Assembly (NCBI GenBank): GCA_964017235.1
Contig: OZ024929.1
Location: 161,929,609-161,993,608, forward strand
Direction of reading: 5' to 3'
DNA: 64,000 nt
From: Sabellastarte sp. h YS-2021
Lineage: Eukaryota; Annelida; Polychaeta; Sabellida; Sabellidae
The notes below the pieces were generated by a model. The model saw only the letters and a program-made list of their open reading frames with translations. It was not told the origin of the DNA and made no database searches. The first letter of the stretch is position 1. Each line of letters starts with the position of its first letter. Positions 7,474 to 64,000 of this stretch are shown here, piece by piece. Position numbers and translations under genes: made by a program.

Positions 7474-7479
7474 CATCAT

Positions 7480-16057: not shown

Positions 16058-19000
16058 GTGAGCCTCATACCGGCATTTCCAACAAAATCTTCACACGCAG
16101 TGAAAATGTGTATTTTTATATCCTGAATTATTAAAATTGATAAAATCAACTGTATTACTTCCCCCTATTAACTTTTTAAGCAATTGTGACTTTCTGGGCT
16201 TTAAATTACACCTGCAATATGTTTGGCCATCAGAAATGATCTAGTACTGTACACTCGGTATCTGATATTAGATTACTAGGCGTTTCGACCTTCGAAATGT
16301 TTTTGACCCCCTATTTTAGCCCCAAATTAGATGCATGTATACAGTACAGGTGTTTTGACCGTCTTTTTAAAAATTTTTTTAAAAATTATGTGTCTTCCCA
16401 ACTCCTGCAGCGATTTTATTTTGCTAGGAAACCCCATGGAAGGCCCTAATTACTTGAAAAAAGCAGCAATTCAATTGCCACTCAGACAAATAATGATAAC
16501 TACACGGGCATGTCACTGAGATCAATGGTCACAGAGATAAACAGTCTTCAAAGTTTTAAAGTTTTTGCAGTAGAAATAGCAAAATCACACAAACTAAATA
16601 ACAAAATAGACTTAAACAATGCTGGTTTGCATTATATTGTTTCTATGTGAGAATTTCTGAAGACCATTTATCTCTATGACCGTTTATCTCAGTGACCAGT
16701 GACCACCCATGTAGTATGAGCGGTAAACGGGTACCTTTAGTATAGACATGGTTACCTTGGCTCTACTTGACTTACATGTTGTTAATACTTTCATAATTTC
16801 ATCGCCCTGTATCTCCTTTATTATTGGTGTAAGAGGTTTGGCATGTGAAGATAACTCCTAGGAAATCATGTGCCCAAAATCAAAGAAGTCATCAAAGATT
16901 CAGGGCCATCATGATAATTGGTGGCCTTGGACTATGTACCGGGCCAGTGGCCATTTCGAACACTGTTCATATCTTCTATATTTCATGGTGTCAAATGCTA
17001 TTACTTGTGTCTGTGGGATACAGGCTTCTCTGGTGCTATTTTTTTCTATTGCAGTCTTTAGAAGTATAATTGTTTCTTCACAGGAATCTGGAGAAAAAGC
17101 TGAAACTATGACTGGTCGAGATGCTGCTATGTTCCCTATCATTGCAAGCTGTACACTATTTGGAATATACATATTCTTTAAGGTGACTACAAGCATAAGC
17201 TGATGATTATAGTTTGACATATTTCTTGTCATTTAAATCACTGAGAAAGTGGAAATATCTTCTGTATTTTGGATATCATTTTGTTGTTGGAAATCAGAAA
17301 CATTTTTACTTACACAAATTTTTATCCATAAAATAGCTTTACTTTAGCATCGTCGCGCCATTTTATGAATTTAGTAACTCAGCTTTAGAAAGTTAATCGA
17401 TATTTTTTTCTGTCTTGCCTGTTCAGCATAGAAAGAGAGAAAATTTTTGAAGTTAGGTCTTTTATATACTTAGTTTTGTATTTCTGATGCATTTCACATT
17501 GAACCGGTTTTCAAAATGTGTGTATTATGTAGAAAGTAATTTTGGACAGAGAAACCTTGTTCTAGTGTCAATATTATCACAATTCCATTAAAGTTATTAT
17601 GCTGTGGTAGAAAATTATGTGCATATGTGTTTTAATGACAAATTTGGTTTATATTTTAGTTATTCTCTAAGGAGTACATCAACATGCTACTGGCAGTGTA
17701 TTTCTTTTTCTTGGGAGTTTTGGCTTTGTCACACATTCTCAGGTAGGTGTTAGGCTAACAAAGACAAGCCTGTATTTCTGTTTTAGTAGCTCTACCCCAC
17801 AGCCTATAAAGGCTGTGCTGGTATTTTTTTCCTCCATGTGGTTTGATTGGGTAGGCAGGTGGGAGTCGGGAGAGGTGATTTGGGTGGTGACTGCCAGTCA
17901 CCTCCACAATTTTCTACTTGTCTGCCCATACATTTTTACCCCACAGCCCTTAAGGGCTGTTGGGGTATTGTTTTCACCCATGGTGTCCGGATCAGACTTG
18001 TAATCTATTACAGCCAATCTATTACTATTACATTTGAAAATATTCAATCTATTACTATTACATTTAAAAATTTTAAATCTATTACTATTACTATTACTGT
18101 GGCATCTATTACTTCTATTACTTTCTATTACATTCTATTACAATTTGGCGCAAACTTGAGAGGTAATTTTAACACAGAAATAAAACTGACAGGATACTTT
18201 ATACATCTAATTTTATTGAAAATGTTTCAGATTATGCCATACAAGGATAAAATATCACAAATATATCACTTGGTATATTTACGATTAAATTAATAGATCC
18301 CGTATTTATTCTATTTAAGAATGACCTGACTACTTGGAGAATTTATGACAATTCTATATAAAGCCACTTAAGTGCTCCAAATTTTGTAATGAGAGGTATA
18401 TTTCTGTCAAATTCTGTGAAAAGCTTTTTAAATGCTGAAAAATATGTTATCAGTAAATATTATCTGTAGAATATACACTGTTGTCAAACAATTCTCATAA
18501 TTCTCATATTTATTCACTTTATGATGAGTTGTTAGATTTGAAAAACCCTTATTATTATGAGAAATACTTGATGAGCAGTGTTTGCAAAAGAAAACACTGC
18601 ATTCAAAGAAACCCCTTCTTTCAAATTCTTTGCTTGCAGAGCCCACCTTAAAATGATTCAAAAACGACATTTATGTTTGAAAATAATAACTCCGGTAATT
18701 TAATGTAAATCAGTGAAACAGCTAACACATGCCACAATGCTGCCCTTATTATACACAATAGTGACCTGTGTGATTGCCTTTCATGCGTCACAGTTTCTCC
18801 TTAGTCAGGAACATTTAGTTAATCCTTCCAAAGGTTAAATTGGCCTCTTTAATCCTTTAATAATACCACCTCAAAGACAGTTGTTTTAGAACACTCAATC
18901 AAAGAGGGACAATTAAAGGTCCCTTGATATTTCAAAGTTATTTATTTCAATGCTTTTGTGTTTTATTTAGTATTCTTTGATGAATATCAATACATTACAT

Positions 19001-22000
19001 ATTGATTATTTGAAAAGTTTATGGATGAAAGTTTGAAATGAATTTGACTTATGAGTGCTACAAAATTAATTCATTATTGTTTGAAGTTTATTTAAAGTGA
19101 TGATTTTATGACAGTTAATTCATTTTTGTATCAAAGTCCATTTAAAGTATTCATTTATGTGAAAACTAATTCATTACAGAATTAAAGTCCATGTTAAGTG
19201 ATCATTTTTTCTACAATCTCCTGAAAAAAAGCAAAGGGTAAATTGTAATAGAAAAATAATAGAAAGTAATAGATGTAATAGATAGAATTTCAATCTATTA
19301 CTATTACATTTGAAAAATTTCAATCTATTACTATTACATCGAAGTTGACTCCAATCTATTACTTTTCTATTACTTCTATTACGTTGTTTACAAGTCTGGT
19401 CCAGATGGATGGGTGGGTGGGCGGCGGGAAATAGTTTGTCCAGCATGTATCTCATAAACTAACGTGTAGGAAGTTGATACTTGGTACGGACATTGGTTAG
19501 GGGTGTAGATGCGCAACGTTATGGTTTGACCTTGATTTGACCTTGCCGTAGTGACCTTGAGTTTGAAGATCTTGTCCGGGCTATATCTCGGAAAACGTAA
19601 GGTGTAGGAAGTTGATATTTGGTAGGGACATTGGTTAGGGGTGTAGGTGTGCAACATCATGGTGTGACTTTGATTTGACCTTGCTGTAGTGACCTTGAGT
19701 TTGAAAATCTCGTCCGAGCTATATCTCGGAAACCGTAAGGTGTAGGAAGTTCATACTGGGTAGGGAGATTGGCAAGGGTGTGTAGATGTAAAACGTCATG
19801 GTGTGACCTTAATTTGACTTTTGACCTTGCCGTAGTGACCTTGACTTATAAAATCTTGTCTGGGCTATATCTCGGAAACCATAATGTGTAGGAAGTTGAT
19901 ACTTAGTAGGGACATTGGTTAGGGGTTCTATGTGTGCAACGTCATGGTGTGACCTTTGACCTTGCTGTAGTGACCTGACCTATAATGCCTTGTCCAGGCT
20001 ATATCTCAGAAACCATAAGGTGTAGGAAGTTGATATTTGGTTGGGGGTTATGGGTGTGCAATGTCATGGTGTGACCTGGATTTGACCTTTGATCTTGCAT
20101 ATCTGATGCTATTTTATCTCTCTATGGGTATATCTGATACTATTTTATCTCTCTTATATCTTTTTACTTGAATCTTGGTTGTTGCATCTTTGGTTGTCTT
20201 TTGATGTAGATTAAGCACTGTTAAAGTCATATTAGAATTCATTGAGGGTTTTACTTATGCAACTTCCCATTGTAACAGATGGTATTTCATCAAGTGAGGC
20301 ACAGGTTATGGCCCAACACCACCTATAAGCATGTATTGCCACATCTGTATGTATGGGTAGTATTCAAAACATTCAAACCATAATTTGACCATACAAAACG
20401 AATATAAAAATGGGAGAGGTCTTAAATCTTCACACAAATGTACAAGGCCACTTTGGTATATTTGAACAATATCCAAAACATGCAAACCATAAATTCAACT
20501 GTGGGAAATGTGCATGAATAACCATCTTACAGCTTCCAGGACAAACAGACTGGCAGGGTCTAAAGCTTTTCAACTCGAAAGCATTTCTGTCGGTCGTAGA
20601 CTGGCGGATCGGCTCTAGTTTCGAACCCTGCCTTAGATTTGACCTTGACCTATAATATATGGTCCAAGCATATCTCGGCAACCATAAGGATATGGATTGC
20701 TGCAACTGATTATTATATGTACTTTTACATAATTGTGATATTTTCATTGACAACTATTCTCCAGTTAATAAATTTACAGCTTCATAATTTTTAGTTTACT
20801 GAATTGTCTTGTTTTAATACTCAATCTTTACATCTTTTCTTTCTCTTATGTGTTATTTTCTCTACTTAAACATTATTTGGACACTGACGCTGCTCTGAAA
20901 GTATCCCGATCTGTGTACTGTTTCACTACTTCTATATCTCGTGGTGTTGAAAACTACTTCCCCAGGCTGTGGGGTACGGGCATCTCTGATGCTATTTTTC
21001 TGAAAGACCTACATTTGAAGTGTTTCCTTTGTAATTTTTGTACTTTTTTTCATTTGATTCCAAAGTCCCTGTGTTTCACACATAAATTTTGAAACCATAT
21101 TTTTATATATTTTTTTATTTCTCTGTAACTGTTGGTGCGACCAATTAATCTTTGGAACAATTTCAGCGCAGCACCAAATTCTGAATAATACAAAGTATAT
21201 TCTATCTTTGTATGCATCAGTTGATACACAGTGAATATGTAGTTACGCCTGGTACAGTTACATACAAATATATATGGTAAGCACACAGAACATAAACCTA
21301 ATCTGATCTTACTCATATACCCTATCTTATGCATACATATCCCTAATATGTTTGACACCGCCGATTTTAACACACCCAGTGCCCAGTCACCAACACTACA
21401 CTAGGCTCTGGAACTTAAATGCAGCAAGCACAAAAATGCCTGGCACTGGGCATCTGAGTACAGGGACATGGTGATGGGAAGTGGAAACCCAGAGCGGAGA
21501 CACTTTATAACTAAGAAAAGTTACTCAAATTAAATATGGTAATATTTCACTGATTTCTCTTCACTCTTGGTTACTGGTTAGTAATGCAAAGCTCAGTCAC
21601 TGAGGGGTGGACATATTATTTTTGCTTTTTCCGCCGTCCGTCGTCCGGATGCTTGGTTTCCGCTCATTTGAAGGAAAAGTATTTATCCTATCTTTACCAA
21701 ATTTGGTATGGGTGTTTATTGGGTTAATAGCTTGCATGGGATTGCTTTTAGTGAAGATAGGTCTATAGCTAACTGAGTAATAGCTACTTAGCTACTTTTG
21801 TGTACTTCTTTTGTTCCCGGGCATTTTAAGGGAAAATATTTGACATATCTTTACCAAATTTAGTATGAGCATTACTTAGGTCGATAGCTTGCTTGGGATT
21901 GCTTTTAGTGATAATAGCTATATAACTGAGTAATAGCTACTTTGCCAAAAATGGAAAAACACAAATTTGCTTCTATCTCCTTATCCGTGCGAGATAGAGC

Positions 22001-25000
22001 GATTTCGTCGAAATTTTCGACCCACAAGGTATCTGAGAAATGTACTCTTGGCAATTTTCAAAAAAATTTCCCCTCACCAAAAATGGCGGCCATTTCAAAT
22101 TTTGGAATTTTTGCCAAAAATGGCAAAACACAAATTTGCTTCTATCTCCTTAACCGTGCGAGATTCGACCCCCAGGTGTCTAAGAAATGTACTCTTGGCA
22201 ATTTTCAAAAAAAATTTCCCCTCCCCAAAAACGGCGGCCATTTTGAATTTTTGAATTTTTGCCCAAAATGGCAAAACACAAATTAGGTTCTATCTCCTTA
22301 ACCGTGGGAGATAGAACAATTTCGTCAAAATTTTCGACCCACAGCGTATCTGTGAAATGTACTTTTGGCAATTTAAAAAAAAAAAAATTTCCCCTCCCCC
22401 AAAATGGCGGCCATTTTGAATTTTCGCCAAAAATGTCAAAACACAAATTTGCTTCTATCTCCTTAACCGTGCGAGATACAGCGATTTCGTCAAAATTTTC
22501 AACCCACAGGCTATCTGAGAAATGTACTCTTGGCAATTTTCAAAAAAATTTCCTCCCCAAAAATGGCGGCCATTTTGTATTTTCAAATTTTTGCCAAAAA
22601 TGGGAAAACACAAATTTGCTTCTATCTCCTTAACCGTGCGAAGTAGAGCGATTTCGTCGAAATTTTCGACCCCCAGGGTATCTGAGGAATGTACTCTTGG
22701 CAATTTTCAAAAAATTTTCCCCTCCCCAAAAATGGCGGCCATTTTGAATTTTCGAATTTTTGCCAAGAATGGCAAAACACAAATTTGCTTCTATCTCCTT
22801 AACCGTGCGAGATAGAGCGATTTCGTCGAAATTTTCGAGCCACAGGGTATCTCTCAGAAATGTACTCTTGGCAATTTTCAAAAAATTTTCCTCTCCCCAA
22901 AAATGGCGGCCATTTTGAATTTTCGCCAAAAATGACAAAACACAAATTTACTTCTATCTCCTTAACCGTGCGAGATAGCGATTTCGTCGAAATTTTCGAC
23001 CCACAGGCTATCTGAGAAATGTACTCTTGGCAATTTTCAAGAAAATTTCCTCTTCCCAAAAATGGCAGCCATTTTATATTTTCGAATTTTTGCCAAAAAT
23101 GGAAAAACACAAATTTGCTTCTATCTCCTTAACCGTGCGAGATAGAGCGATTTCGTCGAAATTTTCGACTCACAGGGTATCTAAGAAATGTACTCTTGGC
23201 AATTTTCAAAAAATTTTCCTCTTCCCAAAAATGGCGGCGATTTTGAATTTTCGAATTTTTGCCAGAAATGGAAAAACACAAATTTGCTTCTATCTCCTTA
23301 ACCGTGCGAGATAGCGATTTCGTCGAAATTTTCGACCCACAGGCTATCTGAGAAATGTACTCTTGGCAATTTTCAAAAAAATTTCCTCTCCCCAAAAATG
23401 GCGGCCATTTTGTATTTTCGAATTTTTGCCAAAAATGGAAAAACAGAAATTTGCTTCTATCTTCTTAACCATGCAAGATAGAGTGATTTCGTCAAAATTT
23501 TCGACCCACAGGGTATCTAAGAAATGTACTCTTGGCAATTTTCAAAAAATTTTCCTCCCCAAAAATGGCGGCCATTTTGTATTTTCGAATTTTTGCCAAA
23601 AATGGAAAAACACAAATTTGCTTCTATCTCCTTAACCGTGCGAAGTAGAGCGATTTCGTCGAAATTTTTCGACCCCCAGGGTATCTGAGGAATGTACTCT
23701 TGGCAATTTTCAAAAAATTTTCCCCTCCCCAAAATTGGTGGCCATTTTGAATTTTCGAATTTTTGCCAAGAATGGCAAAACACAAATTTGCTTCTATCTC
23801 CTTAACCGTGCGAGATAGAGCGATTTCGTCGAAATTTTCGAGCCACAGGGTATCTCTCAGAAATGTACTCTTGGCAATTTTCAAAAATTTTCCTCTCCCC
23901 AAAAATGGCGGCCATTTTGAATTTTCGCCAAAAATGACAAAACACAAATTTACTTCTATCTCCTTAACCGTGCAAGATAGCGATTTCGTCGAAATTTTCG
24001 ACCCACAGGCTATCTGAGAAATGTACTCTTGGCAATTTTCAAAAAATTTCCTCTTCCCAAAACTGGCGGCGATTTTGAATTTTCGAATTTTTGCCAGAAA
24101 TGGAAAAACACAAATTTGCTTCTGTCTCCTTAACCGTGCGAGATAGAGCGATTTCGTCGAAATTTTTGACCCACAGGGTATCTATGAAATGTACTCTTGG
24201 CAATTTTCAAAAAATTTTCCTCTTCCCAAAAATGGCGGCCATTTTGAATTTTCGAATTTTTGCCAGAAATGGAAAAACACAAATTTGCTTCTATCTCCTT
24301 AACCGTGCGAGATAGAGCGATTTCGTCGAAATTTTTGACCCAACCAATGCAAAAAGGCATGAAGCTGAAATAATTTACATGTATACTAATAAATATTTAA
24401 GCATCATTGATATATTTTACAAATGAAACAGGGTCTTGTAAGACTACTGTACAATTTTTGCAAAAGGTTCATGGGGTGGACATTACACATGATAATGTGT
24501 GTTCTTCTATGCTATCCTGTTTCTATTCATATGTCGCAGCTGCTATCAACAGGGCGTCCAATTTCTAGTATTAAAAATTAAATTTTCAGCCCAGTATTGA
24601 GAGGATTGATGCCCAGGGCTTTTCCAAATGAGGATTATCACTTGGTGCTTACTCAAGGAAAAGATAAGAAGAAAGAAGGTAAATCAAAATAAATAAAAGG
24701 CATCTGTGATGATTAAAACTGTTTTTTTATCAACTCGAGTCCAATGAATGCAAGTACATCTAGGACGTGACTTTGTTAACCCACATCCTACCATGACATC
24801 CAACCATGACAAAAATAGCAACTTTATGATTTGTATTCCTTTTATGGAGTCAGTGCTAATGAAATCAAATTAATGTCCACCATGGCAGTCTTACTCTGGC
24901 CGGATGTGACAAAAAGGGAGTATTTTAAAAATTACCTTGTTTACATACTTCTACCATGGTGAAGTAATGGTCAGATCTGAGGAAGCACACATACCTTCAG

Positions 25001-28000
25001 TTCTGACTTTATCCCCTTGCATATTGTCAGATCTGATGAACTATGAGTTTGACCGTGTGGACTTAGTGACCCTTGCTCTCTGTGCTGGAATTGGTGTCTG
25101 GTACCTCACAAAGAAGGTAAGACTAGAAAAAAGTATTTCACCTTAAGTAGATGTTGCAGGACTGCCCTATATGTAGGGTTGGTCTAAACTATTATATAAT
25201 TTGTAAAAGCGTATGTTTATAGAGTCGTTACTTGCCTCCTGAAATTAGAGGACAAGGAGTGATTCAAATGTTTTATTGCTCCTGTGTTAGCTTTTTAAAA
25301 TTTAGTTACCTGATGCTAATCCCTGTTAACACTAAAGATATTCTGAATAATGTGAATTACACCATATTTGTCATATGATAATGCATTTTCACAACTTTAT
25401 GCTCTTATAGTGAGCATTCTGAGAGTGGTTGTAAGTTTATCCAACAGCCTTATGCAAAAGTGACTATCACAACAGGTCTAATGTTGATTTTAGTTTTTTT
25501 ATTATGAGGTAAGGCACTGAAAAATAACAGTTGTTTATACCATTGCATGGTCTTGTATTGCCTTTACTTTACTTTGAATGGTCACGATTTTGTTCACAAT
25601 CCTGGTACTGTTGACTGTTCCATTCTCTAATGTAATAAATCAAAAACCATCAGATATTGTTACACATCACAACTCTGTGAATGTTTCCTTTTCAGCATTG
25701 GATTGCCAATAATCTCTTTGGCCTGGCCTTTTCACTGAATGGTGTGGAGTTTCTCCAGCTTAATCGCATCAGCACTGGCTGCATTCTTCTTGGAGGACTA
25801 TTTCTCTATGATATCTTTTGGGTAGGTCAAACAGGGTTTCCTGTATAAGTCTAGTACTTGTTATATCCCCAGACGAAAGTCGGGGATATATTGGATTCAG
25901 GTCCGTCGCGCCGCCGCCGCCGCCGCCGTAGAAATTTCCTTGTGGACGCGATAACTCAAAAACAAATTAATATTTTTTTTTCAAACTTGGTACACATGTT
26001 AAGGGTGTCCAAAGGAAGATCCCTATTTTAAGGTGACCTTAAACTCCCAATAAAAGAGAACTTATGGCCACCTTAAGGTCAGAAATTGCACTTTTGGCCA
26101 CTAAGAGCCCTCTAGGTCACAAACTATGATGCTCAGCTGGCTGAAATTTCACCTGAGAACACATTAATATGTTCTTAGTACATGTGCCGAAAATCACGAC
26201 TTTAAGTTGAGGAGAAAATTGTGTTTGAGGCCCATAAAGACCCCCACTTAGGGATTTTTTGCTATATTTTTCACATATTTTGCCCTATAATTTGGAAGTG
26301 GTAACTCTGATGAGTCTCAAACTGCACTAGGTATAACTTTGATATGTAATCCTTGTCTGTAGAAAATTTTAGGGCTGTAGGTTTACCCAAAGGGGTCGAC
26401 TTAAGGTCTCAAAAGTGCCCACAGAGACCCACTTTATGCACTTTTTGCCACTTTCGAGCACTGTAGCTTTCAAACTATGTCTCTCATCTAAGTTAAATAT
26501 CATCTGAGAATATATCTATGTGTTTTCTTATATCTGCCCCAAAATTTAGGCCTTTAATAGACATTTAACCTGTGTGTGAGGACCATAAACACCCACCCGA
26601 GTGACCCTTATAAGACATTTTTCACATATTTTTCCCTGTAACTTGGAAATGGTAAGTCTGAGAAGTTTCAAACTGTATTAGATATACATTCTATGTGTAA
26701 CCTTTGAATGTGAAAGATTTTTAGTCTGAAGCTTTGATTTGAAGGTCACATTGAGGTCTCTAAAAGGCCCACAGAGACCCGATATTTTGCCTTTTTGCCA
26801 CTTTTAAGCCCTGTGACTGTTAAACTATGTTACTGATAGAGCTGAAATCTCACCTGGGAATATATCATTATGTCATTTTTACATGTGCCAGAAATAAAGG
26901 CTTTAAGTAGACATTTAACCTGTGTGTGAGGACCATAACACCCACCCGAGTGACCCTTTTTAGACATTTTTCACATATTTTTCCCTGTAACTTGGAAATG
27001 GTAAGTCTTGAGAAGTTTCAAACTGTATTAGATATACATTCTATGTGTAACCTTTGATTGTGAAAGATTTTAAATCTGAAGCTTTGATTTAAAGTTCACA
27101 TTGAGGTCTCTAAAAGGCCCACAGAGACCCAATATTTGGACTTTTTGCCACTTTTAAGCCCTGTGACTGTTAAACTATGTGACTGATAGAGCTGAAATCT
27201 CATCTGGGAATATATTATTATGTTCTTTTTACATGTGCTGAACATCAAGGCCTTTAGTAGATATTTAACCTGTGTATGACGACCATAGATACTCACCCGA
27301 GTGACCCTTTTTAGACATTTTTTACATATTTTGCCTTGTAACTTGGAATGGTAAGTCTGAGAAGTTTCAAACTATATTAGATATACATTCTATGTATAAT
27401 CTCTGATTGTGAAAGATTTTAAGTCTGAAGCTTCAATTTGAAGGTCACATTGAGGTCTCTAAAAGGCCCACAGAGACCCAATATTTGGACTTTTTGCCAC
27501 TTTTCAGCCCTGTGACTGTTAAACTATGTGACTGACAGGGCTGAAATCTCAACTAGGAATACATTATTAAGCGTCTTCTTTTTCCATGTACCGAACATCA
27601 AGGCCTGTAGTAGACATTGAACCTGTGTATGACGACCATAGACACTCATCCAAGTGACCTTTTTTGACATTTTCTACTGTATTTTGCCCTGTAATTTGGA
27701 AATGCTTAGTGTGACAAGTCTTAAACTGTATTATATCTAATTTTTGTTTGTTATGTATGTCCCCCAAAAAGTTTCAGATCTGTAGTTTAATTGCTAAGGT
27801 CTCTTTAACAATTGTAAAATGCCCACAGAAACCCAATTTATGGACATTATGCCACTTTAAAGCCCTGTAACTGTCAAACTATGTAGGTCATAGAGCTGAA
27901 ATCTTTGAATTTTTAAAAGGAAGTGCCTGTCTCTTTAAATTTTGAATATTAATGATGTTATGGCTATCTTAGTCTTTTAAGAACTTATTTTTGTGTGTTG

Positions 28001-33908: not shown

Positions 33909-33954
<46 letters not shown>

Positions 33955-45900: not shown

Positions 45901-48900
45901 TGAATTTTCGAATTTTTCGCAAAAATTGCAAAACATAAAAATGCTTATATCTCGAAAACCCTGCAAGATAGAGCGATTTCGACGAAATTTTTGACCCACA
46001 GGGTATATCTGCAGAGTAGCCATGCCAAGTTTCAAAAAAATTTTGTCTCGCCAAAAATGGCGGCCATTTTGAATTTTCGAATTTTTCGCAAAAATTGCAA
46101 AACATAAAAATGCTTATATCTTGAAAACCCTGCTAGATAGAGCGATTTCGACGAAATTTTTGACCCACAGGGTATCTCTGCAGAGTAGCCATGCCAATTT
46201 TCAAACAAAAAATTTCTCGCAAAAAATGGCGGCCATTTTGAATTTTCGAATTTTTCGCAAAATTGCAAAACACAAAAATGCTTATATCTCGAAAACCGTG
46301 CTAGATAGAGCGATTTCGACAAAATTTTTGACCCACAGGGTATATCTGCAGAGTAGCCATGCCAAGTTTCAAAAAAATTTTGTCTTGCCAAAAATGGCGG
46401 CCATTCTGAATTTTCGAATTTTTCGCAAAAATTGCAAAACATAAAAATGCTTATATCTTGAAAACCCTGCTAGATAGAGCGATTTCGACGAAATTTTTGA
46501 CCCACAGGGTATCTCTGCAGAGTAGCCATGCCAATTTTCAAACAAAAAATTTCTCGCAAAAAATGGCGGCCATTTTGAATTTTCGAATTTTTCGCAAAAT
46601 TGCAAAACACAAAAATGCTTATATCTCGAAAACCGTGCTAGATAGAGCGATTTCGACAAAATTTTTGACCCACAGGGTATCTCTTCAGAGTAGCCATGCC
46701 AATTTTCAAAAAAATTTTATCTTGCCAAAAATGGCGGCCATTTTGAATTTTCGAATTTTTGCGCAAAAATTGCAAAACACAAAAATGCTAATATTTCGAA
46801 AACCGTGCTACATAGAGCGATTTCGACGAAATTTTTTATCTTCAGGGTATCTCTGCAGAGCAGCTATCCCAAAGAGCTTTCACTTGGTGAAGTTTCAGAC
46901 CCATAGCTAATTGCTCACCTACTCAAAAAGAGTAAATGCGAATTACCTGTAAAAGTATTGCAGATGGCCAATTTTTCTCAAATAACTCATTCACCTACTT
47001 TTGGAAGAGCTTTCACTTGGTGAAGTTTCAGACCCGTAGCTAATTACTCACCTACTCAAAATGAGTAAATGCTAATTATCTCAAAAACTATTGCGGATAC
47101 CCAATTTTTATCAAATAACTCATTCATGTACTTTTGGGAGAGCTTTCACATGGTGAAGTTTCAGACCCGTAGATGATTACTCGCCTACTCAATATGAGTA
47201 AATGCGAATTATCTCTTAAAAGTATTGCAGATAGCCAATTTTTCTCAAATAACTCATTCACCTACTTTTGGAAGGGCTTTCACATGGTGAAGTTTCAGAC
47301 CCATAGCTAATTACTCACCTACTCAAAATGAGTAAATGCGAATTATCTCTAAAAGTATTGCAGATAGCCAATTTTTCTCAAATAACTCATTCACCTACTT
47401 TTGGGAGAGCTTTCACATGGTGAAGTTTCAGACCCATAGCTAATTATTTACCTACTCAAAATGAGTAAATGCTAATTATCTGTAAAAGTATTGCGGATAC
47501 CCAATTTTTATCAAATAACTCATTCATCTACTTGTGGGAGAGCTTTCACATGGTGAAGTTTCAGACCCATAGCTAATTACTCACCTACTTAAAATGAGTA
47601 AATGCTAATTATCTCTAAAAGTATTGCAGAGAGCCAATTTTTCTCAAATACCTCATTCACCTACTTTTGGGAGAGCTTTCACTTGGTAAAGTTTCAGACC
47701 CATAGCTAATAATTCACCTACTCGAAATGAGTAAATGCTAATTATCTCTAAAAGTATTGCAGATAGCCAATTTTTCTCAAATAACTCATTCACCTACTTT
47801 TGGAAGAGCTTTCACTTGGTGAAGTTTCAGACCCATAGCTAATTACTCACCTACTCAAAATGAGTAAATGCTAATTATCTCAAAAACTATTGCGGATACC
47901 CAATTTTTATCAAATAACTCATTCATGTACTTTTGGGAGAGCTTTCACATGGTGAAGATTCAGACCCGTAGATGATTACTCGCCTACTCAATATGAGTAA
48001 ATGCGAATTATCTCTTAAAAGTATTGCAGATAGCCAATTTTTCTCAAATAACTCATTCACCTACTTTTGGAAGGGCTTTCACATGGTGAAGTTTCAGACC
48101 CATAGCTAATTACTCACCTACTCAAAATGAGTAAATGCGAATTATCTCTAAAAGTATTGCAGATAGCCAATTTTTCTCAAATAACTCATTCACCTACTTT
48201 TGGGAGAGCTTTCACATGGTGAAGTTTCAGACCCATAGCTAATTATTTACCTACTCAAAATGAGTAAATGCTAATTATCTGTAAAAGTATTGCGGATACC
48301 CAATTTTTATCAAATAACTCATTCATCTACTTGTGGGAGAGCTTTCACTTGGTGAAGTTTCAGACCCATAGCTATTTATTCACCTACTCAAAATGAGTAA
48401 ATGCTAATTATCTGTAAAAGTATTGCGGATACCCAATTTTTATCAAATACTCATTCATCTACTTGTGGGAGAGCTTTCACATGGTGAAGTTTCAGACCCA
48501 TAGCTAATTACTCACCTACTCAAAATGAGTAAATGCGAATTATCTCTAAAAGTATTGCAGATAGCCAATTTTTCTCAAATAACTCATTCACCTACTTTTG
48601 AGAGAGCTTTCACTTGGTGAAGTTTCAGACCCATAGATAATTATTCACCTACTCAAAATGAGTAAATGTGAATTATCTCTTAATAGTATTGCAGATAGCC
48701 AATTTTTCTCAAATAACTCATTCACCTACTTTTGGAAGAGCTTTCACACACGAAAATGAAAAATTGTGAATATCCTGGAAAAGCTATTTCTTCTGCTTTA
48801 ATGCTCGGCGGGAGATACACACCGCGGCAGTGGTCTTGACAAAAATTTTTGTCTCCCCAAAAATGGTGGCCATTTTGAATTTTCAAAGTTTTTGCAAAAC

Positions 48901-51900
48901 ACAAAAATGCTTATATCTCGAAAACCGTGCTATATGGAGCGAACTCAACAAAATTTTGGACCTGCTGGGTATCTCTGCAGAGTAGCCATGCCAATTTTCA
49001 AAATATTTTTGTCTCGCCAAATATAGCGGACATTTTTAATTTTTTTATTTTTTGCAAAACACAAAAATGCTTATATCTTGAAAACCATGCTAGATAGAGC
49101 AGACTGCGCTGACTTTGGTCGCCACAACAGTATAAGGCTAGAAACGAAGCATTTTCTTAATACTTTAGCACTCACCTTTATATCCTTTTCGGGACGCTTT
49201 GTTTTTGCTATGCAAAAACATTATCTTTTTTTTTTGCGAGCGATCCTCTAGTTGTTTTTTTTTTACGAATTTTTAAAATATTTTTTTCATGCATTAAAAC
49301 TGACAAGTTCATGCAGTAAATCATTTATAACTTGAAAAGCATTGCATTTAGAACATTTTGTTAAATATGTTTTTCACCTACTTTTCTTTCAGCTATAACA
49401 TAGTAAAATTTCAGACTTGTAGCTGATTGCAAATTAATGTTTATAGCTGTATATAAAACTATACATTTGCTACATTTTCTGATCTGTGCAGAATCTGCAT
49501 CAGAGAAAAGAATTGTCTGTGTGTATGTTACAGAAAACAGAATTGCCTCTGTGTGTGTGTTATATATGTCTTTGTTTTTCTCCCATCAGTTGAAGTGGAG
49601 AGGGGTGGGGGGAGGGGAAGATTTTCAACATCTCCTAAGGTGACTGAACTTAGGTAAACACTCACTCCTGCATATACAGATTTACTGCAGTTCACACACA
49701 AACATTCTTTGTTTTTCTCTTAGTGTACATTATTGAGACACAAATATCACTTAAATTCTATGAGTTATTTTGTGTTGCAAGTTTACCTTTAAAAATATTT
49801 AATTTAGAGTTAGAAAATGGGTCTACAACACTGTTCTGTATTCACATTGTCCCAGGTTTTTAATGGAGAGGGGTTGCAAAATACATGTACTTGAATATTT
49901 TGACAGATTACCCCAAAAAATGTTTCTGCAAGTTAAAAACAAAGCTTATTATGGTCAGCCTTACTTTGTGGAAAGTCAAAATAAATGCATTAGCAAAGAA
50001 AATCCATAAAAAATCCTTATTACATGCACAATTTGTATATGATCAAGTATATTTTAAATTCATATTTTGACATATTCAGAAATATTACCTTATACTAATA
50101 TCTTTTCATTACTACCATAAGGAGGTTATCTGTTTGGATGTGTTTGTATCTCTGTTTCTTATTACTCGAAAAGACATGAACAGATAATTGTGAAATTTTT
50201 ACGTACATTGATCGGGCCTGATTGAAGGAAATGAAATTAAATTTTGTGAAAAATCCAGATCTCATTCTGGATACAAAAACCCTGAATTTTCAAATGAACA
50301 ACTTCTTCTCCAAAACCTTAACTATCATGGATGAAAAAGTGCTCAAGGCATGCAGATATGTTTGTTCGTCTGTTCCCCAGAGCTATTACAAGAGAGCTAC
50401 CCCCACCCAAAGTGTGAAAATTTCAATACTTTATCACAAATTTCTCATTCAGTATTGCAGGGATTTTTCTCTTTTCTTGCGTATATGTACTAGACCACGA
50501 GGGGATTCCCTTGTGTGAGTATCAGACCTGGATCTTTCTGAATTATTATATCCCCAGACGAAAGTCGGGGATATATTGGATTCAGGTCCGTCGCGCCGCC
50601 GCCGCCGCCGCCGTAGAAATTTCCTTGTGGACGCGATAACTCAAAAACAAATTAATATTTTTTTTTCAAACTTGGTACACATGTTAAGGGTGCCCAAAGG
50701 AAGATCCCTATTTTAAGGTGACCTTAAACTCCCAGTAAAAAAGAACTTATGGCCACCTTAAGGTCAGAAATTGCACTTTTGGCCACTTAGAGCCCTGTAG
50801 GTCACAAACTATGATGCTCAGCTGGCTGAAATTTTACCTGACAACACATTAATATGTTCTTAGTACATGTGCCGAAAATCATGACTTTAAGTTGAGGAGA
50901 AAATTGTGTTTGAGGCCCATAAATACCCCCACTTAGGGATTTTTTGCTATACTTTACACATATTTTGCCCTATAATTTGGAAGTGATAATTCTGATGAGT
51001 CTCAAACTGCGCTAGGTATAACTTTGATATGTAATCCTTGTCTGTAGAAAATTTTAGGGCTGTAGGTTTACCCAAAGGGGTCGACTTAAGGTCTCAAAAG
51101 TGCCCACAGAGACCCAATTTATGCACTTTTTGCCACTTTCAAGCACTGTAGCTTTCAAACTATGTCTCTCATCTAAGTTAAATATCATCTGGGAATATAT
51201 CTATGTGTTTTCTTATATGTGCCCCAACATTTAGGCCTTTAATAGACAGTTAACCTGTGTATCAGGACCATAAACACCCACCCGAGTGACCCTTATAAGA
51301 CATTTTTCACATCTTTTTCCCTGTACCTTGGAAATGGTAAGTCTGAGAAGTTTCAAACTGTATTAGATATATATTCTGTGTGTAATCTTAGTATGTAACA
51401 GATTTTAAGTCTGAAGCTTTAATTTTGAAGGTCAAATTGAGGTCTCTAAAAGGCTCCCAAAGACCCAATATTTGGACTTTTTGCTACTTTTAAGCCCTGT
51501 GACTGTCAAACTATGTGACTGATAGAGCTCAAATCCTATCTGAGAAGATATTAGTATGTTATTTTTATATGTGCCAAAAATTAAGGCTTTAAGAAGACAT
51601 TTAACCTGTGTATGAGGACCATAAATCCCCACCCGAGTGACCATTTTTAGACATTTTTCACATATTTTTCCCTGTAACTTGGAAATGGTAAGTCTAAGAA
51701 GTTTCAAACTGTATTAGATGCATATTCTATGTGTAATCTTAGTATGTGACAAATTTTAAGTCTGAAGCTTTAATTTGAAGGCTACATTTAGGTCTCTAGA
51801 AGGCCCATAAAGACCCAATATTTGGACTTTTTGCCAATTTTAAGGCCTGTGACTGTTAAACTATGTGACTGATAGAGCTGAAATCTCATCTGGGAATACA

Positions 51901-54900
51901 TTATTATGTTCTTTTTACATGTGCCAAAAATCAAGGCTTCAAATAGACATTTAACCTGTGTATGAGGACCTTAAACACCCACCTGAGTGACCCTTTTAAG
52001 ACATTTTTCACATATTTTGCTCTGTAACTTGGAAATGGTAAGTCTGAGAAGTTTCAAACTTTATTAGATACATATTCTATGTGTAATCTTAGTATGTAAC
52101 AAATTTTAAGTCTGAAGCTTTAATTTGAAAGCCACATCGAGATCTCTAAAAGGCCCACAATGACCCAATATTTGGACTTTTTACCACCTTTAAGCCCTGT
52201 AACTGTTAAACTATGTGATTGATGGAGCTGAAATCCCATCTGGGAATGCATTATTATGTCCTTTTTACATATGCCGAAAATCAAGGTTTTTAGTAGACAT
52301 TTAACCTGTGTATGAGGGCCATAGACACTCGCCCAAGTGCCTTTTTTGACATTTTTTCCGTATGTTGCCCTGTTATTTGGAAATGCTTAGTGTGACAAGT
52401 CTTAAACTGTATTATATATAATTTTTGTTTGTTATGTATGTCCCCCAAAAAGTTTCAGATCTGTAGTTTAATTGCTAAGGTCTCTTTAACAATTGTAAAA
52501 TGCCCACAGAAACCCAATTTATGGATATTATGCCACTTTAAAGCCCAGTAACTGTCAAACGATGTGGGGTATAGAGCTGAAATCTTTGAATTTTTAAAAG
52601 GAAATGCCTGTCTATTTAAATTTTGAATATTAATAATGTTATGGCTATCTTAGTCTTTTAAGAACTTATTTTTGTGTGTTATACCTCTGCTTGCTGAGTT
52701 TTTCACTTTTTAAAATGAAACTGGTTAAACATATTCAAGTAGACAAAATGGACACTTTAAGTGAGCTTTAAGTCCCAATATTAATGAAATTATATCCTTA
52801 TGTAGTAAAACTAGGGGATTTTTAACCCTCAACTAGCCCAGTTTTATTCAACTTGCCTCAGTTAATTTTGGCACAGCTCCTACAGTTATGAACTCATTTC
52901 AGTTGATAATCACATACTTAAAATTCTCAATTCTTTTTGTATTTGAGTACCCCTTTTATATAGATTGTTTGTTTACCATTTATGCTCAACCCACATCCCC
53001 CACCCGGATTCCCCCCACCCACCTCTGGGACCTCCAGCTATATTGAGTGACACTAAATAAACAATGGTATTTAATGATATCAGAAGAGAAACAAAGAACT
53101 CAATGGGGTTGCAGATCTTGTGTAATAGTGAGAGAGGTGTGGAGAAGGGGAGAGGGGTGGGGGTGGGAGGTGGTGGGCTTCATTACATATAACACAAAGG
53201 GGAGTCAGAACTGAGATTGTGTCACATATTTAGGTTGCATATATATGGACCACATATATAGGTATAGAGGAAATGAATAACTGAAAACAATTTGCAAATT
53301 CTAAAAATAATATAATAAAATAATAATATAAACAATTTTTTTTTAAATAATATTTTATTTGTGAACAAATATAGAAACAGATATGCGCTTTTGGGATTAT
53401 GAATTTTAGAATGGACATTGAATCATCAATCATTTAAATACTTTGAAGGAAGATTGAAAAATATGATGAGTTGAGTTAAAAATAATATTTTATTTGTCAA
53501 CAAATATAGAAACAGATATGCTCTTTTGGGATTATTATTTTAGAATGGACATTCAATCATCAATCATTTAAATACTTTGAAAATAGGTTTAGAGTTATCA
53601 TTGCAGGAAGATTGAAAATATAATTTGAGTTATGTATTCGGCGTCTGGGGATACACCATCTTCCTTGGGGAGATATAAACAGAGTAGATTGATGTGCTGA
53701 AGTTCATATAATAATGGGTAATTATGTTTTAAAAAATTTCCGATCAAAACCTGTGGCGTGAGTGATGACCTGTCTGGGGATATGTTGGCGCCGAGTTGGC
53801 CCAATCTAGTTTTTTTATGAATTTTTAAAATAATTTTTAATGCTTTAAAATTCCTGAAATCATGCGCTAAATCACTTATAACTTGAAAAGTATTGCATCT
53901 AGAGCATTTTGTTAAAATATATGTTATTCACTAAGACAAATATGACCTGCAGTGTGTGCTATTGTGCACACTGAGTGAAAAGGTTGATAAGGGATATCAA
54001 GATGGATTCATTTCTTTTCATTAAGGGATATGCTTACAGGTAGATCTTTTTGGGGGTAAAACAATTCAAACAAGGATAATTATCTATAGGTTCATGGAAG
54101 TGGATCCTTATGGAAGTAATATTTTGTGGAAAGAATATCTTGTCTGTTTTGAGAGACTGGAAAAAGCCTTAAATTAAATATATCCTGGAAACAATTTACA
54201 ATTCCACATTTACTGCTACAGTTTCTCTTCAGCCAACCTCTAGCAAAAATGATGCGGAAAATATACTACTTTACGAAACACAATAAAACTCACATTCTGC
54301 TTACAGTTTAATACTGCAACTGCTACAGTTTTTAAATAATCCACTTTTCGATCAGATACAAAACACAGTAAAGCTTATGTTCTGCTTACAGTCTCATACT
54401 GCAACTACTACAGCTCTGCATCCGGGCCGTTCGTTTTTGTTAGCAAAAACCTTTTTCTAGTTGCATTTTTTTTGGTAAATTTACCCACACCAGGGAGAAA
54501 CAGAAATATTACAGGATCAATTTTGTACGGTCAAGTGACCCATGGTGAACAAAAACAAAGGCTGAAATGTAATTTTTCTACATTCTCTGCAGGTGTACAA
54601 AAGAGATCTTTGTGAAGCTGCAGACAAAAAAAAAGTATCTGTGTGTACTCACAGCTACTGTGAATATGTGCGAGGCATAAGCATAGACAAACTATTGATC
54701 TGCTGTGTATGTATTGGTGCTGCAAAATCATTTAGCATTTTAGGTTTGGGGTTTGGTATCTGTACAAGCTGGGAAACTTTGATCTAGTTCAACAACAAAG
54801 CTGCACAAATTTAACCAAAAACTGGTCACTTTGTTGAAAATATGTCAAAAAAAACCCCAAAAAATTAAAAAAACATTAATTCATAGATATTTGGGGAAAA

Positions 54901-57900
54901 TTTCAGCACATTCTCAAGAAAACCGAAGTTTTATAGATGGGCAAAAAAAGCATCTTTTGTGGTGTTGGTGATTTTAAATGTTTTGCGAAGTCCTCAGTGG
55001 CCCAGTGGTTAGCTAGTTTGGCATCTAATCACAGACAATCAGATCTGTTTGGGGTTGACCCCACAAGTGGCAATACTGATGTCCTGTCCCATTATGACCC
55101 TGGCTGTTGAACGTCACATGAAACACCAACTTTGACTTCCAATGTTTTGTGTAGTCCGAATTTCAGACATTTGAACCAACCTATCTTTTCCAGGCAGCAA
55201 ATTAGCAAACTATCAAACTTCTACAAATATCATCACGTCACTTGTATGAATGAGTCATACATACAAGTGATGGGATGATATCTGTAGTGTGATTCTTCTG
55301 GTGATCTAAACTTGATATTTGAAATAAAGACATTTGTAATGAAGACAAGACAAGACATTTGTAATAAAGTTGTTTATAAAAAAAATTATTTAAAATTGTA
55401 GGATTTTAATTCCATATTTCGATAGGCAAAATAAAACTAATTTATGATTTTTAAACCAAATCAATAGATTATTGTATCCTCAGACGAAAGTCAGGGATAC
55501 TTAGGATTCAGTATGGTCATGCCGCCACTGCCGTAGAGATTTCCTTTCAGACGCGATAACTTAAAAAATATTTTAGTTAGACCTTCCAAATTTTGTGTGT
55601 GGGTATAAATGGGCAATGCCACAAACGCTGTTGTTTTGTGACCTTGACCTTCAATTTCAAGGTCATTGGTGGCCTCTTTCACATTTTGGCACAGTTCTCA
55701 TATACAGAAAGTTGGATCATCCTATGGGTGGTATATATAATACATATATATGTCCTCTGTAAGCATGCAGAAATTATGTCCACCCCACTGGGGGGTGGAC
55801 ATATCATTTTTGCTTTTTTTCGCCGTCCACCATCACACTTGGTTTCCGGTCATTTCAAGGAAAAGTATTTATCCTATCTTTACCAAATTTGGTATGGGTG
55901 TTTATTGGGTTAATAGCTTGCATGGGATTGCTTTTGGTGAAGATATCACCGTTACCACTCTAACAAAAAAATATTATAGCTAGCCTTCTCAAATTTGCAG
56001 GATGTATTCATAACCATAAAATCTTGGCTGGGAATATTTTTGGCCTCATTTTGAAAATAAGATGGCTTCCATGGGCGTTTTTTCGACTTTCAGCAAGGAC
56101 TTTTGTTGGCCCTTTAGAACAAAGGGTATTATAGGTAGAGATCTCAAAATTTGCAGGATATGTTCCTCAGTACAAAATCGTGAATATTTTTGGCCTCATT
56201 TTGATAAACATGATCGCCGCCACGAGCATTTCTTTGTCAGTCATGAAAAGTGCTTATATCACCCTTATTATTGGTCTTAGAGGCTTGGTATGGGGCCCCT
56301 CCTTCAAGGTCAAACGAGGATAGCCAAATCTAAAAGTGGTTATTATTGGTCTTAGAGGTTTGCAATGTGAAACCAACCTATAAGAAATCATGGGTTGGGA
56401 ATCTTTTGATGTGGACAGGTTTCACCTTGGACCCCTCCTTCAAGGTCAAACAAGGATACCCAAACTTCAAGGTCAAATGAGGATAGCCAAACTTAAAAGT
56501 GCTTATATCTCTCTTATTATTGGTCCTAGAGCTTTGCAATGTGAAACCAACCTATAGGAAATCATGGGCTGGGAATCTTTTGATGTGGCCAGATTTGACC
56601 TTGGGCCCTTCCTTTGAGGTCAAATGAGGATAGCAAAATCTAAAATGCTTATAAATCGCTTTTTCTTGGTCATAGAGGTTTGTAATGTGAAAGGAATCTT
56701 TTGATGTGATCAGATTTGAGCTTTGGCCTCTCTTTCAAGGTCAAATGAGGATAGCCAAAACTGAAAGTGCTTATAACTCGCTTATTTGTGTTCCTAGAGG
56801 TTTACAATGTCACACCAACCTATTGGAATTCATGGGCTAAGAATCTTTTGATATGGTCAGATTTTACCTTGGGCTCCTACTTCAAGGTTAAGTGATGGTT
56901 GATTGGCGAGTTTTCTTTCTGGTGGATACAATTTGCATCGGTTCTCCGATGCGCTACATCTAGTTACATTTGTATCTTTCATTAAGCAAACATTTTGTTT
57001 ACTTAGTGTCAGTACAAGTTGCTCCCATAAACATTTAGGCTCCTCCCCACAGGGGTATATTTGTGTCAACCATAATACTCTGTATGTCACGCTTCAATCA
57101 TGTCCCGTCCGGGGATACACTGCGTCGATATGCAATCTCTAGTTTTAGGTGTTCTAATGGCTGATACTTCATCAAAGCAATAAAAAAATCTATATATTTG
57201 CTGAAGTATGTCACATTTTTACTTGATACAGGGTAAAAATTATGTGTACTCAGTTAAAAATATCTTGCAAAAGCTGTTGCTGGTTATAAATTATGACTCA
57301 TGTACGTTTGTGGTTAATTTTGACCATAACAAATTATGAAATACCTGATTTAGTTTGTTTCAAAGCCATGGAAACTGATTTTGTTTATTGTAAATGATTC
57401 CTTCACTACCTCAATATGACCCTAACTATTAAAATGGAATGCTTAAAAAAACTTTGACTTAGGCCTGTTGGCTAATTACTTATTTATATATGACTCAGTA
57501 AAATTTGGTAATGTATGTCAGTACTTTGGACTTATGCATCAATTGTTTGTGTTACAGCCAGCACTGCTGTACCTGGTTCCTGCATGTATTGGTACGCCAC
57601 TCTTTGTAGCTCTAATCAAAGGCGAACTCAAAGAACTTTTCAGGTAGGTAGTAGTGAAGGAAGGATTTTTTTTTATCTCAAGGCAAATTTTGGTACAATT
57701 TATATTGCTACAGTATTTGCTTTTTGGAAAAGTTAATATATTGTCCATTATCTGACTCAAAGCTTCACCTATTCTGATTCGAAAAATCTTTGTATTTATG
57801 CAATCCAATATGGGAAATGGATGAAGGTTGAGTTCATGAAATTCTGAAATTATGTCAAAGTAATGAAACAAGGATAGTTATTGAAAATGATTGTTGCATA

Positions 57901-63162: not shown

Positions 63163-64000
63163 TTATCTCCCGCCGGGCTTTAGCCCGGGAGGGAGATTAT
63201 GAAATGATGTCTGTGTGTGCGTGCGTGCGTGTGTGTGCGTTAGTTAGTCACGCAGATTTCTCCAAAACTGCTACAGCTACAGATTTTTTGTAAATTAATT
63301 GTCCCAATGAATTTTCATGCCCTTGAAAATTTTTTTGGTTTTATTGACTTAGGCCTAAAGATATAGTGAGTAATAGCAATCTTAGCTACTTTGAGTAAAG
63401 GGCTCATAACTCAAAAACTATTGCAGTAACAAGTTTTTCTTCAAATATGTTGTTCAGCTACTTTGTCCTTAACTATAAGATGGTACATAGTTTGGGGTCC
63501 CATTGCATGCCATAAGTGAGTAATAGCTATTTTCTCATTTGTAGCTAAATAACAGAAGAAGTAAATGTCAAATATCTTCAAAAGTATTGAAGTTAGGGAA
63601 ATCTTTTCAAATATGTTGTCCATCTTCTTTTTGGTAAGCTATCACATACTAAAGTTTCAGACCTGGTGCACCTTGGATAGCTGAGTAATAGCTACTTTGA
63701 AATTCTGACTGGTGAGTAAAGCGATTGTAACTCCAAAACTATTGCAGTTCGAGTATTTTCCTAAAATATGTTGTTCAGCTACTTTGTCCTTAGCTATAAG
63801 ATGGTACATAGTTTGGGGTTCTATTGCATGTCATAAGTGAGTAATAGCTATTTTCTCATTTGTAGCTAAATAACAGAAGAAGTAAATGTCAAATATCTTC
63901 AAAAGTATTAAAGTTAGGGAAATCTTTTCAAATATGTTGTCCATCTACTTTTTGGTAAGCTATGGCATAGTAAAGTTTCAGACCTGTTGCACCTTGGATA
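63163..64000 (+). mobile_element. H4 element, 5' part, continues beyond window
   Basis: TTATCTCCCGCCGGGCTTTA and GCCCGGGAGGGAGATTATGA form the terminal palindrome, followed by a TGTGTGCGTGCG microsatellite. Units with GAGTAATAGCTA, AACTCNAAAACTATTGCAGT and ATGTTGTTCAGCTACTTTG follow. A ~324-bp period is visible (63510 and 63834). It interrupts the H3 element at CTCCTTCA. Confidence 0.8.

Follow-up and report, generated by a model that had tools for sequence, protein, structure and literature searches.

Non-autonomous Helentron rolling-circle transposons (HINEs) have already been described in mite and fly (PMC4067079) and in oyster (PMC7492417). The available portions of PMC4067079 describe elements of Metaseiulus and Drosophila (DINE-1) that share several features with those reported here: subterminal inverted repeats set back 2-4 nt from the 5' terminus and tens of bp from the 3' terminus, a 3' palindrome, a TT target with no clear duplication, and an origin as deletion derivatives of partners with Rep, PIF1 and AP endonuclease domains. 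The Cg_HINE elements of the Pacific oyster also resemble ours, forming several families of different sequence with a subterminal repeat, local complementary inverted repeats 1-12 bp apart, a microsatellite (GTCC-type in several), satellite-like arrays, a 3' subterminal repeat and a palindrome; according to the accessible text, no autonomous partner could be related to them, whereas here we found one for one end type (PMC7492417). The part of PMC5148889 available to us reports asymmetric terminal inverted repeats with hairpins at one or both ends, as here, for the Helitron2/FoHeli elements, which target TTTT before T or C. In the same way, sections of PMC4778049 describe a 3' hairpin preceding CTAG, again as here, in Helraiser/Helibat, where the hairpin is the terminator, a stem swap retains ~90% of activity, and read-through (terminator bypass) yields new 3' ends. 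Helraiser is, however, a canonical Helitron with a 5' TC, and a distal inverted arm is absent from its description in those sections.

We analysed a 64,000-nucleotide window of contig OZ024929.1 from the annelid Sabellastarte sp. h YS-2021. A sequence-only reading of this window had proposed that six element families of different sequence, H1 to H6, share one terminal blueprint resembling that of HINEs. The elements and their parts are as follows.

1850 to 2841, minus strand: short complete H1 copy, found by the strict scan described below.
6768 to 9135, plus strand: second H5 copy.
17936 to 20994, plus strand: H5, from a TTACCCCACAGCCC hairpin to AGGCTGTGGGGTA, a GCATCTCTGATGC hairpin and CTA followed by a T run; interrupted by a nested hAT-like element.
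21600 to 24568, plus strand: H1 copy without the 5' arm.
25861 to 29156, plus strand: H2 copy a, with a TTATATCCCC hairpin at the 5' end, central tandem repeats, 3' arm, hairpin and ATCTAG before TT.
28991 to 29005, plus strand, and also at 37017 and 53643: internal 3'-end-like arm GTCTGGGGATACACC in H2, ~165 bp before the end; the following hairpin was read by eye.
29521 to 32749, plus strand: H4, from a TTATCTCCCGCC hairpin to GGCGGGAGAT, a hairpin and GTGGTCTTG; 5' boundary seen in 10 genome copies.
33862 to 37182, plus strand: H2 copy b, which matches copy a at 99.1% identity.
39001 to 44071, plus strand: H1 copy a, from a TTATGTCCACCC hairpin to GGGTGGACAT, a hairpin and TTTCTAG before T.
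45034 to 49251, plus strand: H3, from a TTAAGCGTCCC hairpin to CGGGACGCTT, a hairpin and CTCTAG before T; found by the strict scan, with a paralogous empty site.
46873 to 48838, plus strand: H4-type 133-bp array and H4 3' end embedded in H3, seen in self-alignment.
50546 to 53809, plus strand: H2 copy c, at the start of a T run within a host repeat; paralogous empty site in L059/autoC.
55472 to 57142, plus strand: H6, with a TTGTATCC hairpin at the 5' end, arrays and two tandem 3' terminators.
55773 to 55945, plus strand: H1 5'-end fragment inside H6, beginning where the homology of L006 to H6 ends.
56922 to 56963, plus strand: inner H6 terminator, consisting of GTGGATAC, a GCATCGG/CCGATGC hairpin and CTAG; similar ends in L042 and L007.
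57111 to 57142, plus strand: outer H6 terminator, consisting of GGGGATAC, a hairpin and CTAG; similar end in L005.
63163 to 64000, plus strand: second H4 copy, cut short by the window edge so that only its 5' part is included.

The blueprint runs in the order TT, hairpin arm, inverted copy of the arm near the 3' end, small hairpin, and CT[A/T]G before a T. In the window, TT with a hairpin arm and a distal inverted arm were seen in all six families. A strict scan, requiring TT, an 8-bp arm, its inverse across a loop of at most 14 nt, a distal inverted arm and CTAGT within 90 nt, gave seven matches in the window (six on the plus strand and one on the minus strand), against a mean of 0.15 and a maximum of 1 in 20 dinucleotide shuffles. 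The seven were the three H2 copies, H3, H4, the minus-strand H1 (2841-1850) and a pair at 49201/54460. Only five are kept without reservation, since the 49201/54460 pair is accidental and the H4 match uses a CTAG (32784) that is probably flank. H1 copy a, H5 and H6 have imperfect arms and were missed by the scan; a looser architecture scan was swamped by tandem arrays matching themselves and was discarded. Across the genome, exact 5' hairpins numbered 3,220 for H1, ~7,700 for H2 (3,948 on the plus and 3,767 on the minus strand), 3,880 and 3,905 by strand for H3, where at least one listed site matches both strands, and 1,145 for H4, with none for the reversed-pattern control in each case.

The common blueprint proposed earlier thus holds in its arms and in the strict scan against shuffles, and gives way in several details of the ends. 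We defined the ends of H1, H4, H5 and H6 by homology boundaries. For H4, the CTAG at 32784 was rejected as the end and is likely flank, because the homology of two H4 copies ends 35 bp earlier: the sequence common to H4 and the H4 piece in H3 stops at GTGGTCTTG (32749 and 48838), so that in these two copies the 3' end is probably CTTG rather than CTAG. The earlier statement that all families but H5 end in CTAG is therefore borne out for several 3' ends and for the exception of H5, and probably fails for H4. At the other end, ten H4 copies hand-picked from the listed places were conserved inside the element and nowhere outside except for T's; TT flanked nine of them, and the tenth has TT in the opposite orientation. 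In the H5 copies finishing at 9135 and 20994 of the window, the 3' end is GCATCTCTGATGCTA followed by T's; variants of it occur in L042, a weaker copy lies near 17040, and two partial copies (L025, 4086-4149) break off before reaching it. Matches to this end at L025 and in the L011 region were rejected as Rep termini, as they look like neighbouring H5 elements. A query taken for H5 matched mostly the nested hAT-like element and not H5 itself.

Most arms differ fully, but the 5' ends of H2 and H6 (the GTATCC group) are homologous over ~100 bp at 75-76% identity, and H6 begins with TTG rather than the TTA described as the usual start. The arm base that differs between H2 and H6 is altered at all three places (A/T/T to G/C/C), which represents one event. 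The three H2 copies in the window are 91.4-99.1% identical in pairwise comparison. In the H6 of the window, two 3' ends follow one another in tandem (56963 and 57142), and each is like the ends of other copies; we infer that terminator bypass produced this tandem arrangement, and perhaps the one in H2 as well.

We evaluated the 3' hairpins with nine spacers, one hand-picked copy each, covering seven end types, with three of the nine from the related GTATCC group. As a set they were non-random against single-base shuffles by DNA folding energy (Fisher p 2.5e-11) and by stem length (Fisher p 2.8e-7). Taken individually, H5 was not significant by energy, and H1, H2, H5 and RepA (introduced below) were not significant by stem length. 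Among six GTATCC-group hairpins, 97.6% of cells pair, versus 17-50% when the alignment is slid. Two of seven pairs are altered on both sides, a result reached by 80 of 500 shuffles; further pair types were matched by 191 of 500, and the number of cells changed and the covariation score were reached by 7 of 500. In the mechanism proposed below, the 3' hairpin would act as a terminator recognised mainly as a structure.

Empty sites, two for H2 and one for H3, supported the ends of those elements. One H2 lies within a RepA copy on C11, two codons past the HUH histidines, and the L015 copy supplies its empty site, TTTA followed across the insertion point by TTTTGG. H3 and H2 copy c have a common paralogous empty site at a T run, supplied by the L028/L029 Rep region; because this paralog is only 78-87% identical, the junction can be placed only within a few bases. 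At the H2 and H3 empty sites the insertions are at TT or T-rich targets that are otherwise unmodified, and no target duplication of fixed length was found beyond ambiguous T's, a possible TT duplication being indistinguishable from terminal T's.

Searches for autonomous elements identified RepA; across four of its copies (L012, L014, L015 and L017) the protein sequence of the Rep domain is 96-98% identical. The L015 copy has a stop-free ORF of 2,245 codons with the motif VEFQHRGSPHLH, a YxxxY motif and a Walker A. Pfam matches were found to Peptidase_C48, DUF6570, Helitron_like_N and PIF1, and to Exo_endo_phos at E 4.8e-5, slightly below the curated cut-off; no OTU match was listed among the scanned pieces, and RPA went undetected, the 236-aa ORF upstream giving no hit in Pfam. 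The C48 (Ulp1-like) match differs from the Helentrons in the available portions of PMC4067079, and the endonuclease-like match sets RepA apart from a Helitron2 without endonuclease, as the fungal FoHeli elements are described in the accessible part of PMC5148889. Some ends given there (CTCCTGT or ATTTT) resemble the CTCTTG before T of RepA and the T-run end of H5.

The 5' end of RepA consists of a T run, AGG[C/T]GGGTTG, an 8-nt loop, CAACCCGCCT, a GTCC-rich microsatellite and arrays in all three copies read (L014, L015 and L017). The 3' end, CAACCCGCCT, a hairpin and CTCTTG before T, is identical in three copies with different flanks, and a fourth copy (L012) has lost the final 3' bases. Judged from its sequence, RepA is apparently an intact autonomous Helentron with the blueprint of H1-H6 but an arm distinct from theirs, the seventh. 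We counted its 5' hairpin at 2,066 places in the genome (control 0), and ten such ends hand-picked from the listed places were conserved inside only, T's aside, with a TT flank in all ten. Each of the three loci read fully, out of the 2,066, consists of the RepA 5' end, an array and the last 140-190 bp of RepA, one of them 100% identical to the RepA 3' end over 161 bp. By this comparison, the HINEs with the RepA arm at these loci are internal-deletion derivatives of RepA.

We conclude that H1-H6 are HINEs, that is, non-autonomous Helentron rolling-circle transposons, with a probability of roughly 0.87. The earlier assignment to this class is supported by the terminal architecture, by T-rich insertion with no evident duplication, and by the presence in this genome of an autonomous Rep/PIF1/endonuclease element built on the same blueprint. 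Subterminal inverted repeats with a 5' palindrome or local complementary repeat are present, and so is the 3' palindrome when the hairpins are taken as a set, H1, H2, H5 and RepA being weak singly on at least one measure; a partner with Rep (RGS motif), PIF1 and AP endonuclease was found for the RepA arm type alone, its endonuclease match being under the cut-off. Canonical Helitrons (Helitron1), with 5' TC and CTRR 3' inserted between A and T, would account for the several 3' ends in CTAG with a hairpin before them, yet the elements have no 5' TC, their targets are T runs, a 5' hairpin and distal inverted arm are present, and the partner encodes an endonuclease-like domain as well as RGS, the Rep motif of Helentrons, so we regard a Helitron1 origin as highly improbable. 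Foldback or TIR (MITE-like) cut-and-paste transposons also have inverted arms at both ends, and the available text of PMC7492417 notes that the bivalve Pearl was formerly called a MITE. Against such transposons, for which we see very little chance, stand the asymmetric ends, empty sites of H2 and H3 that show no target duplication of constant length, and a Rep-encoding relative with the same end design. As HINEs, the elements would move when the Rep/helicase/endonuclease of a Helentron makes a nick in a T-rich site and takes the 5' hairpin arm as the start; the strand would then be copied and peeled away through the tandem-repeat body until the inverted arm and small 3' hairpin signal a stop shortly before CT[A/T]G and T (farther for H1 and H3), and the strand or circle would enter another T run without duplication.

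Of the two options offered by the sequence-only reading, several autonomous partners or one replicase that reads structure, the first has support from a single end type, that of RepA, which is not among H1-H6. The genome holds at least six Rep groups with a mutual identity of at most 61%. We followed seven Rep regions (RepA, auto9, auto10x, auto11, auto18, auto21 and L028/L029) outwards for several kb, and only RepA had a convincing pair of ends; L028/L029 had no blueprint ends, and at auto9 two AT-rich pairs with CT[AT]GT were rejected because an H5 copy contains them. We found no autonomous element carrying an arm of H1-H5; no family among H1-H6 has a proven partner whose ends match its own, and H2 in particular has none despite its ~7,700 intact 5' ends. 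We infer that every arm type has, or once had, its own cognate Rep lineage, as the RepA arm, the one supported case, suggests. For the GTATCC group (H6/H2), the RepB lineage (L010/L016), with its ORF reversed relative to the ends, is a tentative candidate. At L016, a GTATCCCC 5' end (L053:2049, minus strand) and a GTATCC-type 3' end (L061:2923, minus strand) lie ~20.7 kb apart and flank RepB, both reversed, with no intervening GTATCC-type 3' end in the part of the locus that was read (all but two stretches), and reversed ORFs are reported for FoHeli4/5 and other Helitron2-like elements in the accessible part of PMC5148889. The L010 copy, however, shows neither end in the stretches read, the L010/L016 homology ends at auto10x 2650, before the 3' end, and similar 5' ends occur elsewhere (L013), so the L016 pair could be nested HINEs. 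It is unlikely, in our estimate, that all families were moved in trans by one or a few Helentron replicases recognising the three-part fold of arm, nearby inverse and hairpin-bearing distal inverse instead of the arm sequence. A constant layout with fully different arms in most families, the abundance of H2 without a proven partner, the restriction of the highest-identity Rep pairs seen to RepA and RepB copies, and 3' hairpin stems that vary yet remain paired would all fit such replicases. RepA nevertheless has its own arm, and the HINEs examined that carry it derive from RepA by deletion. The arm base separating H2 and H6 changed in all three places in one event, which would be expected if the enzyme recognises the arm sequence too, and the diversity of Rep groups argues against few structure-reading enzymes.

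Rolling-circle elements make up on average ~5.9% of the surveyed bivalve genomes and 12% in Crassostrea, according to the available portion of PMC10294476. The accessible text of PMC7992393 judges the elements of the oyster genome likely inactive because there is no autonomous element there, and our searches of open-licence PMC texts listed no paper that links bivalve HINEs to an autonomous partner. The main addition here is that a single assembly contains a stop-free autonomous Helentron, RepA, its own HINE derivatives and several further end types. The H2 that interrupts the Rep domain in one RepA copy shows one parasite disabling another's engine. With cognate and non-cognate ends in one assembly, whether a replicase reads arm sequence or fold becomes a testable question. 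Should a few Helentron replicases read a sequence-independent terminal fold, so that new arms arise freely if all three copies change together, which we think quite improbable, then H1, H2 and H3, with thousands of intact 5' ends each, would be mobilised in trans by Reps with other arms.

All six families, H1-H6, are present in the window at or near the positions assigned to them by a sequence-only reading, and the shared terminal blueprint proposed there proved real once corrected. Every family starts with TT and a hairpin arm; near the 3' end the inverted arm comes back, with a small hairpin after it. A strict blueprint scan of the window returned seven matches against a mean of 0.15 (maximum 1) in 20 shuffles; one of the seven is a chance pairing, and that for H4 depends on a CTAG now thought to be flank.

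Ends of the six families (a slash marks the boundary)
H1: 5' arm TTATGTCCACCC; 3' end TTTCTAG/T, 3 copies
H2: 5' arm TTATATCCCC; 3' end ATCTAG/T, 4 copies
H3: 5' arm TTAAGCGTCCC; 3' end CTCTAG/T, 1 copy
H4: 5' arm TTATCTCCCGCC; 3' end CTTG, 2 copies
H5: 5' arm TTACCCCACAGCCC; 3' end CTA then T's, at 9135 and 20994 in the window; L042 and a site near 17040 show variants
H6: 5' arm TTGTATCC; 3' end CTAG/T, two forms

The proposal that all but H5 end in CTAG thus probably fails for H4. Two further partial H5 copies end before the CTA/T's terminus. Ten H4 copies, which we picked among the listed places on contig C1, share a conserved interior and nothing outside it except T's; TT precedes nine of them in the script's orientation and the tenth once flipped. 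A solitary H3-like 3' end (GTTTTTGTTAGCAAAAAC...TTTTTCTAG/T) lies at 54430-54460, with no 5' counterpart noticed in its vicinity.

The assembly around the window comprises 1.79 Gb in 647 contigs. The window spans a gene with exon peptides matching signal peptide peptidase (PF04258; exons near 25700 and 37340), whose introns house many of the elements. Exact 5' hairpins were counted genome-wide for H1-H4: 3,220 for H1, 3,948 on the plus and 3,767 on the minus strand for H2, 3,880 and 3,905 for H3 (at least one site being counted on both strands) and 1,145 for H4, with 0 for the reversed-pattern controls.

Searching with Pfam PF14214 yielded 24 matches out of 36 candidates, including four near-identical loci (L012, L014, L015, L017) of an autonomous Helentron, here RepA. 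In the L015 copy a stop-free frame of 2,245 codons matches C48-like, DUF6570, Helitron_like_N, PIF1 and endonuclease domains (the last just under its cut-off) and contains HUH, YxxxY and Walker A motifs; Rep motif 2 bears the RGS signature published for Helentrons (PMC4067079). An upstream 236-aa frame is without any Pfam match. The L015 copy (20.5 kb read, element length ~12.3 kb) begins at a T run with AGG[C/T]GGGTTG, an 8-nt loop and CAACCCGCCT; a GTCC-rich microsatellite and tandem arrays come next, and a second 5' end lies 600 bp in from the first. The 3' end, CAACCCGCCTTTTGGGGCACCTCTGACCCTCTTG/T, is the same in three copies, after which the flanks diverge; L012, the fourth, is missing its final bases. 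The 5' end is doubled, 0.6-0.8 kb apart, in all three copies with the 5' side read:

Doubled RepA 5' ends
L038: 2193 and 2793
L039 (reverse): 2363 and 3131
L063: 403 and 1167

The RepA 5' hairpin occurs at 2,066 genome places (control 0). Three loci, a small sample taken as the first listed places with content playing no part in the choice, each lack the ORFs and join the RepA 5' end and array directly to its final 140-190 bp, as in non-autonomous Helentrons (HINEs); in L066 the identity to RepA is 100% over 161 bp. Several listed places of this type are likewise paired, about 0.4-0.8 kb apart. This relation between autonomous element and HINE is of the kind demonstrated in mites (PMC4067079) and missing for oyster (PMC7492417; PMC7992393).

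Element boundaries were also read from empty sites. A single H2 copy, seen in L012 and L037 (G000:C11:69208216), breaks the RepA Rep ORF two codons past the HUH histidines; in L015, where the ORF is uninterrupted, the empty site reads TTGTTTA/TTTTGG, and the occupied site TTGTTTA(TTATATCC...ATCTAG)TTTTGG. H3 (45034) and H2c (the H2 copy at 50546..53809) sit at the same T-run start in two paralogous host repeats and so share a target, and an empty third paralog (L059, 78-87% identical) fixes this junction to within a few bases. No fixed target duplication was seen at these H2 and H3/H2c sites beyond T's assignable to either side.

Several elements are mosaics. The window H6 ends in two tandem terminators, each like the ends of other copies, and includes an H1 5' fragment; H2 has an additional 3'-like arm ~165 bp inside its end, and H3 holds the H4 array and an H4 3' end. 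Arrays seem to move between families. Either terminator bypass, known for Helraiser (PMC4778049), or nesting could account for the H6, H2 and H3 mosaics. The 133-bp H4 array was observed inside H3 at 46873-48838 and, reversed, beside the gene of RepB, the Rep lineage of L010 and L016 (L041/L046/L053). A 1.4-kb hAT-like element (17993-19398) is nested in H5. Its inverted ends are short (CAGACTTGTAA...TTACAAGTCTG), and by eye it shows an imperfect 8-bp duplication, GTCCGGAT/GTCCAGAT; 39 other copies at 92-96% identity were found among 40 candidates scored.

The sequence-only reading left a choice between several autonomous partners and one replicase that reads structure. Several partners fit the present data: RepA and its HINEs have one arm in common, used by none of H1-H6, and the Rep matches form at least six groups with a mutual identity of at most 61%. 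This comparison covers the 19 of 24 matches with at least 100 aligned residues (L025, L027, L028, L030 and L031 being too short to place).

Rep groups
A: L012/14/15/17
B: L010/16
C: L011/19/20
D: L018/23
E: L021/22
F: L024/32

L009 is closest to group D (52-54%); L013, L026 and L029 are placed less clearly. RepB may be the partner of the H2/H6 end type: at L016 it lies between a GTATCCCC 5' end and a 3' end of GTATCC type, both reversed and ~20.7 kb from each other. The L010 copy, however, gives no confirmation, and nested HINEs would give the same picture. No convincing ends emerged from the L028/L029 region or from five further Rep regions, and therefore no partner is proven for H1-H5. By eye, an interspersed repeat with inverted ends (AAATTTTTATAAGTTAATACCC...) interrupts a RepB copy (auto10x 16866-17200, L046) and lies also inside H4 (window 30379-30600).

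As for what is read at the ends, the likeliest division of labour, as an inference, is that the 3' hairpin is read mainly as structure and the arm as sequence, because the hairpins vary yet pair, the arm copies changed together in one case and a reconstructed bat Helitron tolerated a stem swap (~90% activity, a loop swap acting like deletion; PMC4778049). The 5' ends of H2 and H6 are homologous, and the outer arm base by which they differ is altered in the 5' arm and in its local and distal inverses alike. That is a single event, and the 5' arm of the window H6 has another, unmatched internal change. L006, L013 and L053 at their 5' ends and L005 at its 3' end carry the H6 form of the base. Among six GTATCC-group 3' hairpins, a part of that group, sequence varies and pairing is kept (pairing in 97.6% of cells, against 17-50% after sliding); both-side changes affect two of seven pairs, a level reached by 80 of 500 shuffles, and 7 of 500 equalled the covariation score. 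Over nine spacers and seven end types, the 3' hairpins are non-random as a set, some being weak singly.

H1-H6 belong to a class already known, the HINE/Helentron elements. New here are an autonomous Helentron, free of stops, that follows the same blueprint and has HINEs of its own in the same genome, and a precise H2 insertion within the Rep domain of that autonomous element.
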